Under the pieces are notes generated by a model. It saw only the letters and a list, made by a program, of their open reading frames with translations. It did no database searches and was not told the DNA's origin. A stretch of 64,000 nucleotides of DNA from the NCBI RefSeq assembly GCF_018555685.1, contig NZ_JAFLWW010000001.1:186001-250000 (forward strand), written 5' to 3'. The DNA comes from Aminobacter anthyllidis (GTDB taxonomy: Bacteria > Pseudomonadota > Alphaproteobacteria > Rhizobiales > Rhizobiaceae). This document shows positions 26,513 to 31,236 of the stretch, in pieces. The position numbers and the translations under genes are program-made. Position 1 is the stretch's first letter; each line of letters starts with the position of its first letter.

Positions 26513-26911
26513 ATGGTTCAACGGTATGAAGGCGGCTGCATGTGTGGGGCCGTGCGTTACGTCGTGGACGCCGCGCCGCTGAACGAACGCATCTGCCATT
26601 GCCGCAGCTGCCAGAAGGCGGTGGGCGCCGCGTTCAACGCGCGGCTGATGTTCCGTGCCGAGCAGGTGGCGATGACAGGGCCGGTGAAAACGGCGTTTTC
26701 GTCGCCGGATGTGAAGCGCGGCTTCTGTGCCGAATGCGGCACGACCGTGCTGTCGGGGCGCGAGTCGGCCGGCGTGCTGGCGGTGACGTCGGGCTCGCTC
26801 GACGATCCCGCCCTGTTTCGCCCGGCAATGCATATCTGGATGTCGTCGAAGCAGCCCTGGCTCAAGCTCGATGACGGCCTGCCGCAATTTGCCGAGGCAG
26901 CGCCGACCTAG
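26513..26911 (+). CDS. GFA family zinc protein (glutathione-dependent formaldehyde-activating fold)
   Basis: This 132-residue protein starts MVQRYEGGCMCGAVRY. Zinc-binding cysteines are CMCG, CHCRSCQ and CAECG, the complete CENP-V/GFA pattern. The family is named after an enzyme that speeds the reaction of formaldehyde with glutathione, but most members have unknown substrates. GAGGGG precedes the ATG. The gene converges on the DeoR gene with a 4-bp overlap. Confidence 0.92.
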   Translation: MVQRYEGGCMCGAVRYVVDAAPLNERICHCRSCQKAVGAAFNARLMFRAEQVAMTGPVKTAFSSPDVKRGFCAECGTTVLSGRESAGVLAVTSGSLDDPALFRPAMHIWMSSKQPWLKLDDGLPQFAEAAPT

Positions 26912-27699
26912 ACACAAATCTCGACGCCGCTGTCGCGTAGCCTGGCGAGCAGGCGCTCTTCCGGCAGCGTATCGGTGACGAGCGTGTGGATGTCGCAGAG
27001 CGAGCCGAGGCGCACCAGTGCGCGGCGGCCGAATTTCGAGCTGTCGACGGCCATGATGGTGCGCGCGGACTGCCCCATGGCGGCGGAGACGGCCGCGACC
27101 TCGGCATGGTCGTCGTCGCCGATGTCGCCGTCATGGTCGACGCCGCTGACCGAGATGATGGCGACGTCGAACTTGAAGCGCCTGATGTATTCGGATGTTT
27201 CCTCGCGGAACACGCCGCCGTCGACCTGGCGGACGAAGCCGCCGGGCACGGCGATGGCGAAATTGGTGCTTTCGCTCAAGGTCGTTGCGACGCGCAGCGA
27301 ATACGTGACGACGCGCAGGTCTCGCCGCTTGACCAGCGCGCGCGCCACCGCCTCGCAGGTGGTGCCGGTGTCGATGAAGACGGCAGCACCATCTGGCACC
27401 AGTTCGGCGGTCAGGCTGCCGATGCGTTCCTTGGCGGCGGCGTTTTCGACGCGACGCTGGCGCAGCACCGCCGGATCGACCGGCGCCGAGATCGTCGCCC
27501 CGCCATGCAGGCGCCGCACCTTGCCGCCCTGTTCGAGCGCCATGATGTCGCGACGCGCGGTCTGCGTCGTCACCCCGTAGAGCGTGGTGATCTCCTCGAT
27601 CGAGACGTAGTGGTTCTTCTCGAGATAGCCGAGCAGCTGGGCCTGACGGGCCGACTTCTTGTTGTCCGTGTCCATGCCAGGTCCGTCGGTTTTGGGCAT
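26908..27699 (-). CDS. DeoR/GlpR family transcriptional regulator
   Basis: This 263-residue repressor-type protein has an N-terminal DeoR helix-turn-helix (YVSIEEITTLYGVTTQTARR, then GKVRRLHGGA) and a C-terminal sugar-phosphate sensor domain with FIDTGTTCEAVARAL and MAVDSSKFGRRAL. Members usually respond to a phosphorylated sugar or polyol. The start was placed at MPKTDG by an AGGA site; MDTDN, 24 bp downstream, is an alternative. It is divergent from the nuclease/phosphatase autotransporter across a 240-bp spacer, a possible target. Confidence 0.92.
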   Translation of the reverse strand: MPKTDGPGMDTDNKKSARQAQLLGYLEKNHYVSIEEITTLYGVTTQTARRDIMALEQGGKVRRLHGGATISAPVDPAVLRQRRVENAAAKERIGSLTAELVPDGAAVFIDTGTTCEAVARALVKRRDLRVVTYSLRVATTLSESTNFAIAVPGGFVRQVDGGVFREETSEYIRRFKFDVAIISVSGVDHDGDIGDDDHAEVAAVSAAMGQSARTIMAVDSSKFGRRALVRLGSLCDIHTLVTDTLPEERLLARLRDSGVEICV

Positions 27700-27939
27700 C
27701 TGCGATCCTGTCTCAACGATTCCAGCTAGCAAGATAGTCGGGCAGTTTCATCCGCCATGCCATTCGCCGCGCGGTCCATTCCGGAAATCGTATCCATTTC
27801 CGAAAATGTTGTAAAAGTGACATCTACCATCATTAATGTCCGTTTTCGTACTTTTCAGTGACCGCAACATGTCATTCGCACGCTGGCCCTGGCGGTTTTG
27901 TGACAATGCGCGGTCGCATCGCAAAAACGGAGTTACGCG

Positions 27940-30900
27940 ATGAGCACTATCCACAACGGCATGGCCGAGCAGCCGGCCGCCACCCACGGCCAGCACCAGA
28001 GACGGTTGCGCGCGCTTGCTGCAGCACTTTTGTGCGGCACGACACTGGCCGTGTCGGCGATGGCTGCACAGGCGGCGGAGGATTCGATCAGGATCCTGAC
28101 GCTGAACACCTGGCTCGACCGCTTCAAGCCCAATCCCGCCGTTGCGGCGGACTTCTTCATCAAGGGCAATTACGACGTCCTGACCTTCCAGGAATTCCGC
28201 GCCAACAGCACCTATGCTCGCGATCTGCCTGGCCTGATGCAGGCTGCCGGCCTCGGCACCTACGGTACGCGCCAGGACAATGACGTCGGCGTGTTTTCGC
28301 GCCTGCCGGGCACGTTTGGCGCGGTAACCCAAGGGGTCATCGCCACCTACACCAAGCTCGATGCGACGGTGAGCAAGCCGCAGACAATCGTTGCCACCAC
28401 CCATCTCAACTACTTCGATCCCTCGACCAACCGCATCGGCCAGGCCAAGGCGCTGAACAACTGGGCAAAGGGGCAGGGCCCCGTGATCCTGACCGGCGAC
28501 TTCAACGCCGGCGACGTCTCCGAACGCGGGCTGCATTCGGTGAGCCAGCAGCATCTGCTGCTCAGGACCTATCTCAAGAGCCCGAGCAACGCATTCTATC
28601 TCGATCTCCTGAAGCAGTACGCGAAGAACCAGACGCAGCTCGATGCCTTCATCGCCCAATGGAAGGGCAAGACGGCGGCCGAGATCAACGCGGCCCAGAT
28701 CCCGGCGGACCTGTTCGCCGACGAGATGTATCCTGTCACCGGCAACCTGCCGCAGACGATGAACATCCTCAAGAAGCAGTACCAGCTGCTGCAGCTGCCC
28801 AACGAGCGCGAGCAGTTTTCGCCGCACGCGCTGAATGACGGCTCGGTGACCTGGCCGTCGCACGGCGAGGACGCGACCAACGTCTGGGCGAGCTGGCACC
28901 GGGTCAAGATCGACCATTTCCTGGCCTCGCGACCGTTCGGTAAATGGTGGGTGATCAATGACGATCCGGCGGACAAGTATCTGGGTGTCATCCGCGATGT
29001 CTCCTACGTGACCAATCCGGATGGTTCCAAGACGCCAATGTCCGACCACGAGCCGGTGGCGCATACGTTGCGCTGGGTCGGGCCGCAGTTGCAGAGCTAC
29101 GACGACAATGGCACGGCCAAGACGCGTCTGGTCTGGGGCAAGGATGCCTCGACCTTCGGCGAGAAGGGCAAGGAATTCTTCCTCTCGCGCAACAACATGC
29201 GCGACGACGTCTATCTCGGCCAGATCTCCGACGCCAACGGCATGCCGACCCTGGCCGGGCTGACGGATGCCGAGAAGAAGACGCTCCTCGACTGCAAGAG
29301 CACCGATGCGCGCTTCCAGCAGGCGATCCGCGACTATTGCATCGACGACCACAGCTTCATCGGCGAGACGAGGGTCGCCGATGGCGGCACCGTCATCGTC
29401 GAGGAGGACGCGGCCCTCGGCGGCGAACAGGCCAAGCTCAGGCTCGACGGCGGCAGCCTCAGGATCGCAGGCACCGACATGCATGTGCTGGGCCGCAACG
29501 TCGTGCTGGAGGCGGGCGGCGGCTCGCTCGACATCGCTGACGCCAGCAATGCCGTTGGCATCAACAAGGAGATTTCCGGCGCCGGCAATTTGACCAAGCT
29601 CGGCCTTGGCACGCTGCTGCTCGACGGCACGCACGGCTACACCGGCGAGACCATCGTCAAGGCCGGCGCGCTTTCGCTGCAGGGCTCGATCGCTGCGTCG
29701 AAGCTGGTAACGATCGGTGCCGGCGGCATGCTGGGCGGCATCGGCACGCTCGGCAACACGGTGGTCGCCTCGGGCGGCACCCTGGCACCCGGCAATTCGA
29801 TCGGCACGATCAAGGTTGCCGGCGACATCACCTTCGAGGCGGGATCGAAATTCGAGGTCGAGGCCAACGACAAGGGCGAGAGCGACAAGGTTGCAGCCAC
29901 TGGCAAGGCGATCCTGAAGGGCGGCTCGGTGCTGACCCTGGCGAGCGGCAACAACTATGCGCCGCAGACCCTCTACAAGATCGTCACCGCCGACGGCGGC
30001 GTGACCGGTTCGTTTGCCGATGTCAGCTCGAACCTTTCCTTCCTCGATCCGTCGCTGGCCTATGGCGCCAACGACGTGACGCTGACGCTCAACCGCAACG
30101 ACATCACCTTTGTTGATGTCGGCACGACGCCAAACCAGAAGGCAGCAGCCGCGGCACTCGAAAGCACCGGTTTTGGCAATGCGGCTTACGCCGCTGTCGT
30201 CAATCTCGACGAGGCCGGCGCGCAGCAGGCGTTTGGCCAGCTTTCGGGCGAGGTGCATGCATCGGCGCAAGGGCTTATGATGCAGGACGGCGGCGTCCTG
30301 GTCGATGCCGCCACCAGCCGTATCGGCCAGGCGTTTGGCGATGCGACCGCAGCCAGCATGCCGGTCATGGCCTATGGCGATGATGGCCTGGAACTGGCGC
30401 CCGCCGATACCGACCGCTTCGCCTTGTGGACCCGCGCCTTCGGTTCGTGGGGCAGCAGCGATGGCGACGGCAACGCCATGGGCTTCGACCGCAGCAGCGG
30501 CGGCCTGGTCGGCGGTGCCGACGCGATGGTCGGCGACAGCTGGCGAGTCGGCGTGCTGGCCGGCTACAGCCGCTCGGCCTTCGACGCGGCGAACGGCTCG
30601 TCGAACGGCAGCAGCGACAACTACCATGTCGGCATCAATGCCGGCACGCGGGTTGGCGCCTTCGGCCTGACGGCCGGTGCGACCTACAGCTGGCACCGCT
30701 TCGACACCGCGCGCTCGGTTGCGTTTACGGGCTTCGCGGATGCTTTGACCGCCAGGTATGACGGCGGCACGGCGCAGCTGTTAGGCGAGGCGAGCTACAA
30801 GGTCGATGCCGGGCGCTTCGCCATCGAAGGCTTCTCCAACCTGTCCTACGTCAACCTGCGCACCGACGCCTTCACCGAAACGGGCGGGGCAGCGGCGCTG

Positions 30901-31236
30901 TCGAGCCAGGCAACGAGCAACGACGTCACCTTCACGACGTTTGGCGTGCGCGGCTCGACCGATGTCGCGCTTGGCGCTGTCGATGCGACCATTCGCGGCA
31001 CGATCGGCTGGCGCCATGCCTTCGGCGACGTCACGCCGGTCTCGTCGGTGGCCTTCGCCGGCTCCGACGGCTTCGAGGTGGCGGGCACGCCGATCGCCAG
31101 GAACGCGGCGGTCCTCGGCGCCGGCATCGACTTCGACATCGTGCCGAAGGCCAAGCTCGGCATCAGCTATTCCGGCCAGCTGAGCAATGGTGCGTCCGAC
31201 CACGGCATCGACGCCAAGCTGGCGGTCAGCTTCTAG
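27940..31236 (+). CDS. Autotransporter with an endonuclease/exonuclease/phosphatase passenger
   Basis: A 1098-residue surface or secreted enzyme. Residues 1-46 are a long signal peptide (cleavage near MAAQA). Residues ~50-395 are an EEP metallo-hydrolase domain: LTLNTWLDR (~52), LTFQEFRA (metal-binding Glu), VATTHLNYFD, ILTGDFNAGD (~185) and MSDHEPVAH (~367), so the catalytic set looks intact. Residues ~470-700 are beta-helix passenger repeats (GTLAPGNSIGTIKVAGDITF). From ~820 to the end is the outer-membrane autotransporter barrel, ending KLAVSF. It should cut DNA/RNA or phosphodiesters or release phosphate outside the cell. The substrate could also be a phospholipid or inositol phosphate. 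Confidence 0.92.
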   Translation: MSTIHNGMAEQPAATHGQHQRRLRALAAALLCGTTLAVSAMAAQAAEDSIRILTLNTWLDRFKPNPAVAADFFIKGNYDVLTFQEFRANSTYARDLPGLMQAAGLGTYGTRQDNDVGVFSRLPGTFGAVTQGVIATYTKLDATVSKPQTIVATTHLNYFDPSTNRIGQAKALNNWAKGQGPVILTGDFNAGDVSERGLHSVSQQHLLLRTYLKSPSNAFYLDLLKQYAKNQTQLDAFIAQWKGKTAAEINAAQIPADLFADEMYPVTGNLPQTMNILKKQYQLLQLPNEREQFSPHALNDGSVTWPSHGEDATNVWASWHRVKIDHFLASRPFGKWWVINDDPADKYLGVIRDVSYVTNPDGSKTPMSDHEPVAHTLRWVGPQLQSYDDNGTAKTRLVWGKDASTFGEKGKEFFLSRNNMRDDVYLGQISDANGMPTLAGLTDAEKKTLLDCKSTDARFQQAIRDYCIDDHSFIGETRVADGGTVIVEEDAALGGEQAKLRLDGGSLRIAGTDMHVLGRNVVLEAGGGSLDIADASNAVGINKEISGAGNLTKLGLGTLLLDGTHGYTGETIVKAGALSLQGSIAASKLVTIGAGGMLGGIGTLGNTVVASGGTLAPGNSIGTIKVAGDITFEAGSKFEVEANDKGESDKVAATGKAILKGGSVLTLASGNNYAPQTLYKIVTADGGVTGSFADVSSNLSFLDPSLAYGANDVTLTLNRNDITFVDVGTTPNQKAAAAALESTGFGNAAYAAVVNLDEAGAQQAFGQLSGEVHASAQGLMMQDGGVLVDAATSRIGQAFGDATAASMPVMAYGDDGLELAPADTDRFALWTRAFGSWGSSDGDGNAMGFDRSSGGLVGGADAMVGDSWRVGVLAGYSRSAFDAANGSSNGSSDNYHVGINAGTRVGAFGLTAGATYSWHRFDTARSVAFTGFADALTARYDGGTAQLLGEASYKVDAGRFAIEGFSNLSYVNLRTDAFTETGGAAALSSQATSNDVTFTTFGVRGSTDVALGAVDATIRGTIGWRHAFGDVTPVSSVAFAGSDGFEVAGTPIARNAAVLGAGIDFDIVPKAKLGISYSGQLSNGASDHGIDAKLAVSF

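Follow-up and report, generated by a model that had tools for sequence, protein, structure and literature searches.

A putative EEP phosphoesterase autotransporter and its linked DeoR-family regulator in Aminobacter anthyllidis and other bacteria

The locus and its gene product

The locus described here lies in a window of 64,000 nucleotides of the Aminobacter anthyllidis genome (assembly GCF_018555685.1, contig NZ_JAFLWW010000001.1, positions 186,001 to 250,000), the whole stretch of DNA that was analyzed, and centers on a gene that joins an EEP catalytic domain to an outer-membrane barrel. The gene and its parts are as follows, in positions of the window.

27940..31236, + strand: EEP autotransporter gene, a complete open reading frame (ORF) of 1098 amino acids (ORF list, translation and Pfam)
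27940..28074, + strand: probable signal peptide, residues 1-45 (by eye; the conserved part of the homologues starts at the same point)
28078..29049, + strand: EEP catalytic domain, residues 47-370, up to the SDH motif (PF03372, conserved residues and fold)
29077..29440, + strand: conserved extension; residues 452 and 467 in it are the mature protein's only cysteines (alignment and cysteine count)
29563..30111, + strand: beta-helix/autochaperone stem (TIGR02601 above cut-off; match to 8e7f, residues 542-724)
30424..31233, + strand: outer-membrane barrel, PF03797 at residues 829-1078, the chain ending in F (Pfam and translation)

An earlier note, made from the letters of this DNA, had placed an EEP domain and an autotransporter barrel in one gene, and the domain models bear this out: PF03797 matches the 1098-aa protein with 214.9 bits against a cut-off of 26 (E 2.1e-63) and PF03372 with 36.6 bits against 24.5, the latter also matching all seven aligned family members at E <= 1 (best 6.7e-12). 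The catalytic set (N, E, H, D, N, D and D-H), which the note had read as intact, is indeed kept in the alignment of family members, the roles of these residues being presumably those familiar from APE1 and from DNase I and the EEP superfamily. In the predicted structure the catalytic domain has an EEP fold, and the cysteine-containing extension is weakly modelled, with pLDDT below 50 in several stretches. The proposed beta-helix linker was recovered as well, and holds one PATR-type repeat at about residues 551-580, with PF12951 below its cut-off (21.9 of 27); the proposed signal peptide is probable, as judged by eye. The gene product is thus predicted to be a type Va autotransporter that would display an EEP phosphoesterase passenger at the cell surface.

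Many relatives share a Leu-Leu-Cys-Gly sequence within the hydrophobic stretch of their signal peptides, by eye without a classic lipobox. A 982-aa antisense open frame (27748-30696, - strand) runs through the autotransporter gene and looks like a GC-rich shadow frame. The same genome encodes eight autotransporter barrels above cut-off and a ninth below it; two of equal score lie about 3 kb apart (G000:C26:328340-329092 and 331575-332327; L001 and L002) and are perhaps a tandem duplicate.

The linked regulator and its predicted operator

Upstream of the enzyme gene lie the following.

26908..27732, - strand: DeoR-family regulator, divergent (PF00455, DeoRC; PF08220, HTH_DeoR)
27805..27824, no strand: predicted operator AATGTTGTAAAAGTGACATC, AATGT-N10-ACATT, 20 bp
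27835..27854, no strand: weak and uncertain second operator-like site, 30 bp downstream of the first, with one mismatch to AATGT-N10-ACATT

The two Pfam matches confirm the divergent DeoR regulator of the earlier note. Its best NCBIfam score is to PRK10906 (GlpR), 193.4 of 331 bits and so below the equivalog cut-off, and it reaches 84.7 bits against the E. coli DeoR model. It has the DeoR domains of the GlpR/DeoR-family repressors, but unlike GlpR it is tied to a surface enzyme.

The enzyme gene was compared over 19 lineages: the window with Aminobacter, AFS045263, Ensifer, Phyllobacterium (L030/L045), Martelella AD-3/lutilitoris (L043/L067), G073, G500 and those handled as L021, L022, L023, L024, L025, L026, L028, L029, L031, L041, L042 and L044. 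A homologous DeoR gene adjoins it in 16 of the 19, divergently upstream in five (the window, AFS045263, Ensifer, Martelella AD-3/lutilitoris and Shinella) and directly downstream in eleven. Seventeen enzyme-linked regulators group in a single clade (100/99) that leaves out the five DeoR paralogues encoded in the window's own genome; these are only 27-35% identical to the window regulator, and long branches leave their own placing in the tree unsure.

The site AATGT-N10-ACATT is found upstream of the enzyme gene in 18 of the 19 lineages at no more than one mismatch, and exactly in 11. When the regions were resampled to first order, a site turned up in 0.19 lineages on average and in 2 at most (300 rounds), a test that is not independent because the pattern was derived from the same sequences. 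As an independent check, which carries more weight, the exact pattern was counted over whole plasmid records, with the backward pattern as control. The 1.79-Mb Ensifer plasmid has it at two places, both at the enzyme promoter (control 0), and each of the two Martelella plasmids whose DeoR gene is linked (315 and 246 kb) has a single copy (control 0). That copy starts 50 bp upstream of the gene for an ABC binding protein, and the enzyme gene is preceded by a copy with one mismatch. Qingshengfaniella has no exact site and a one-mismatch copy upstream. In the genome of the window a 24-letter operator pattern has a single site at up to 3 mismatches, and in its genus a looser pattern gave 17 matches in 6 genomes (backward control 0), with the enzyme promoter among them in 6 of 6. 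The predicted operator site, near-palindromic and 20 bp long, matches the GlpR site of E. coli in size and differs from the GlpR consensus in its center.

The second window site has a matrix score of 11.6, under two unrelated places in the window (13.6 and 12.0). The 30-bp spacing of paired sites recurs in Ensifer and Phyllobacterium: the matrix scan finds a second match at a distance of 30-31 bp in the enzyme promoters of Ensifer, Phyllobacterium and M. lutilitoris, and at 31 bp in both Martelella transporter promoters.

A wider regulon in the genus was considered and rejected, the other recurrent site (4 of 6) lying before an isocitrate-lyase-like gene and being judged unrelated. This conserved operator-like sequence (L055, L056, L061 and L062), in front of a gene that was named by eye, is probably the site of another regulator. 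Pho-box control of the enzyme gene was likewise set aside, since the number of matches in the window at up to 3 mismatches to the Pho-box consensus is at chance level (3 against 3.04 expected, none at the enzyme promoter); general phosphate-starvation control thus has no support here. A promoter scan gave one weak minus-strand match overlapping the operator, against 0.7 expected, and was not used.

Distribution and transfer

Of 41 genomes, 6 have the passenger, the source genome among them, and all six belong to the 10 of its own genus. An even draw of the class gave matches in 3 of 385 genomes (the source genome, G073 and G111), that in G111 being only a 57-residue piece of the extension (E 2.7e-4), and a draw of the phylum gave 2 of 398 at E <= 1e-8 (the source genome and G500). 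A scan of genome contigs found at least 14 loci, in Aminobacter, two Ensifer, Aliirhizobium, Rhizobium, Neorhizobium, Aquibium, Phyllobacterium, Pleomorphomonas, Ancylobacter, two Xanthobacteraceae metagenome-assembled genomes, a Rhizobiales isolate and Biostraticola tofi, a gammaproteobacterium. Fifteen plasmid records also match, 8 of them from Ensifer; neighborhoods were looked at for 7 of the 15, with a further stretch for two. Some databases name relatives "autotransporter domain-containing protein". The spread of the family is patchy, and its presence on plasmids and in Biostraticola points to horizontal transfer, a reading limited by the weakness of the deep forks in the tree.

The G111 piece (L016, G111:C451) is 39% identical over 57 aa and belongs to a different autotransporter-like frame, close to the end of its contig; the extension may be common to other passengers. 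In Aliirhizobium terrae (L021:5794-9169) the homologue is split over three ORFs in the stem and barrel, and may be broken or mis-sequenced. Of the plasmid records NZ_CP066788.1 and CP070278.1, one is labelled "Dysgonomonadaceae bacterium zrk40" (246,192 bp) and one Martelella lutilitoris (246,197 bp); they are almost the same in length, match equally and both come from a cold seep, and the "Dysgonomonadaceae" label is probably due to a sample that was mixed or misassigned.

In Qingshengfaniella alkalisoli the EEP part, the extension and the PATR-type repeat are all present and a DeoR gene lies directly downstream, but there is no barrel. Its C-terminus matches TIGR03370 (VPLPA-CTERM) over the full length of the model, below cut-off (21.5 of 25.35 bits), and a VPLPA motif is visible by eye. 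If this tail is real, surface display would have been kept by another route in this one lineage of the 19.

Neighboring transporters

Martelella AD-3 and M. lutilitoris share one arrangement: genes for a binding protein, an ATPase, a permease of fused length (560 aa) and a HAD-family hydrolase (probably a phosphatase) are followed by the divergent DeoR gene and the EEP autotransporter. It is only in Martelella that enzyme and importer are linked by a common site. The nearest NCBIfam models of the three transporter proteins are those of the aminoethylphosphonate proteins PhnS2, PhnT2 and PhnU2, each below cut-off (339 of 392.75 bits for the binding protein against PhnS2). Among solved structures the AD-3 binding protein is nearest to AfuA (4r72-75, E 3.4e-42) of the sugar-phosphate importer AfuABC, and P5PA is its third match. 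AfuA binds sugar phosphates, contacting the sugar through His205, Asp206 and Glu229 (PMC4546632; papers are cited here and below from excerpts), and P5PA is likewise described in excerpt as binding pyridoxal phosphate.

A different transporter of the same broad class, with a histidine-phosphatase-like protein, lies convergent to the Ensifer enzyme gene, and UgpC-type ATPases are encoded near the enzyme genes of Pleomorphomonas and Phyllobacterium. The Phyllobacterium transporter was set aside as evidence, a GntR gene heading its operon and no exact site being present there. Together with the phosphorylated effectors typical of the DeoR family, these neighborhoods favor a small phosphate ester that is released, taken up and dephosphorylated.

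The nature of the enzyme

The earlier note had offered phosphate scavenging, control of extracellular DNA or biofilm, and attack on host lipid as possible jobs. The enzyme-linked clade of DeoR regulators, the common operator-like site and the Martelella importer and hydrolase behind that same site argue for the first, the scavenging of organophosphates, as the favored one of the three, without amounting to proof. On balance, we consider it somewhat probable that the gene encodes the surface arm of an organophosphate-scavenging module, made up of the EEP autotransporter, a dedicated DeoR repressor and, in Martelella, linked import. The type Va autotransporter would present a metal-dependent EEP phosphoesterase on the outer surface; a GlpR-like repressor would bind the 20-bp sites before the gene, to judge by their conservation and by the behavior of the family, and let go on sensing a phosphorylated metabolite. 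Effectors of the DeoR family are typically phosphorylated intermediates (PMC12632272). The enzyme would cut an organophosphate outside the cell, probably a sugar- or polyol-phosphate ester or diester, and the released compound would be imported, in Martelella by the AfuA/PhnS2-like ABC transporter whose operon includes the HAD-family hydrolase and has the same site in front.

Several observations weigh against such a module. The window operator is weakly palindromic (4 of 10 pairs), the resampling test has the circularity noted above, and the plasmid counts are not uniformly clean: in M. mediterranea (593 kb) the one exact site is at the enzyme promoter with a control count also of 1, and in Phyllobacterium one of five exact places is at the enzyme promoter (control 1). 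No site was found upstream of the Biostraticola enzyme gene, and in the stretches examined no DeoR homologue was found near the gene in Biostraticola, Phyllobacterium or M. mediterranea. The second PDB match of the AD-3 binding protein, 8x1a (E 2.9e-39), is named as a binder of an iron(III) compound, and AfuA His205 and Asp206 look replaced in the Martelella protein (by eye, with an inferred numbering offset), so that its sugar contacts appear changed. Aminobacter genomes have AfuA-like genes, none of them at the enzyme operator, and the Ensifer transporter was rejected as a regulon member, no operator site being found near it. The fold of the passenger, too, is matched equally, among the matches listed, by TDP2, Bacteroides EEPs, sphingomyelinase and nocturnin.

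Because of this tie the passenger is assigned to no substrate class. One rival reading is a surface DNase or RNase acting on extracellular nucleic acid, for nutrients or biofilm control, with the regulator sensing (deoxy)ribose phosphate. ExoIII and APE1 share the fold with TDP2 and nocturnin, E. coli DeoR responds to 2-deoxyribose-5-phosphate (PMC12632272), and a nucleosidase gene follows the DeoR gene in Qingshengfaniella. We nevertheless find a nuclease rather unlikely: the ExeM/NucH extracellular nuclease model NF033681 matches one of seven members, below cut-off (best E 0.08), the regulator scores far better as GlpR-like than as DeoR, and small phosphorylated compounds are what the nearest relatives of the Martelella binding protein bind.

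It seems improbable that lipids or their head groups are the substrate, as they would be for a phospholipase C, glycerophosphodiesterase or sphingomyelinase-like enzyme. Neutral sphingomyelinase has the passenger's fold, but nucleases match the structure at least as well. Many sugar transporters use ATPases of the UgpC subfamily, in Pleomorphomonas the binding protein is scored as one for carbohydrates, and the Phyllobacterium operon is GntR-headed and without the operator site. Less probable still is a role in remodelling phosphopolymers or glycans on the surface of the cell itself, with the regulator monitoring the process: the barrel, or the VPLPA-like tail, would hold the enzyme on the cell, but a capsule and exopolysaccharide neighborhood was seen in one lineage, Qingshengfaniella.

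Relation to known systems

TDP2, the mannosyl-6-phosphatase BT3783 of B. thetaiotaomicron (4c1r), neutral sphingomyelinase and nocturnin have the same fold as the passenger; no autotransporter is described among the 50 structural matches listed, and the passenger family differs in having its own insert and a Cys-X14-Cys extension. A PDB sequence search with the passenger profile gave nothing below E 1, with weak matches at E 1.4-2 to nocturnin and to a protein of no relation. The earlier note had called an EEP passenger unusual, and a review and the literature searched support this. Characterized autotransporters are mostly adhesins, proteases and esterases being the larger enzyme groups, and a 2022 review gives five enzyme classes for type Va: proteases, esterases, the sialidase NanB, the aminopeptidase AaaA and the acid phosphatase MapA (PMC9289746). 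The words nuclease, endonuclease and phosphodiesterase are absent from the text of that review, as are "endonuclease" and "PF03372" from that of a 2012 survey (PMC3419190); nucleases do appear in a 2019 overview, there as type Vb passengers of contact-dependent inhibition (PMC6555100). Searches of the open-licence literature, including for Rhizobium extracellular nuclease, found no EEP passenger of an autotransporter. Among the closest known systems is MapA of Moraxella catarrhalis, a type Va protein whose passenger hydrolyses phosphate esters, with a predicted N-terminal catalytic domain followed by a beta-helix (PMC9289746, PMC3419190). It is set apart by its description, in those excerpts, as an acid phosphatase, with no mention of an EEP domain, a DeoR regulator or an operator. 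No part of the present system is new in kind; their combination, and the way it is regulated, seem not to have been described within the literature searched.

We would go further only tentatively, and propose as a possibility a sixth type Va enzyme class: a mobile, self-regulated module in which EEP phosphoesterase, DeoR-type sensor and operator travel together, with importer and phosphatase taken in by some hosts and the barrel exchanged for a sorting-signal anchor in another, surface display being what is selected.

Much of the work on characterized autotransporters concerns pathogens. An autotransporter of the present kind, a phosphoesterase under regulation in bacteria of soil and roots, would connect the secretion route with the acquisition of phosphorus and carbon. 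Its linked regulator, in turn, offers a direct handle, as the compound that releases the repressor should point to the product of the enzyme and its substrate.
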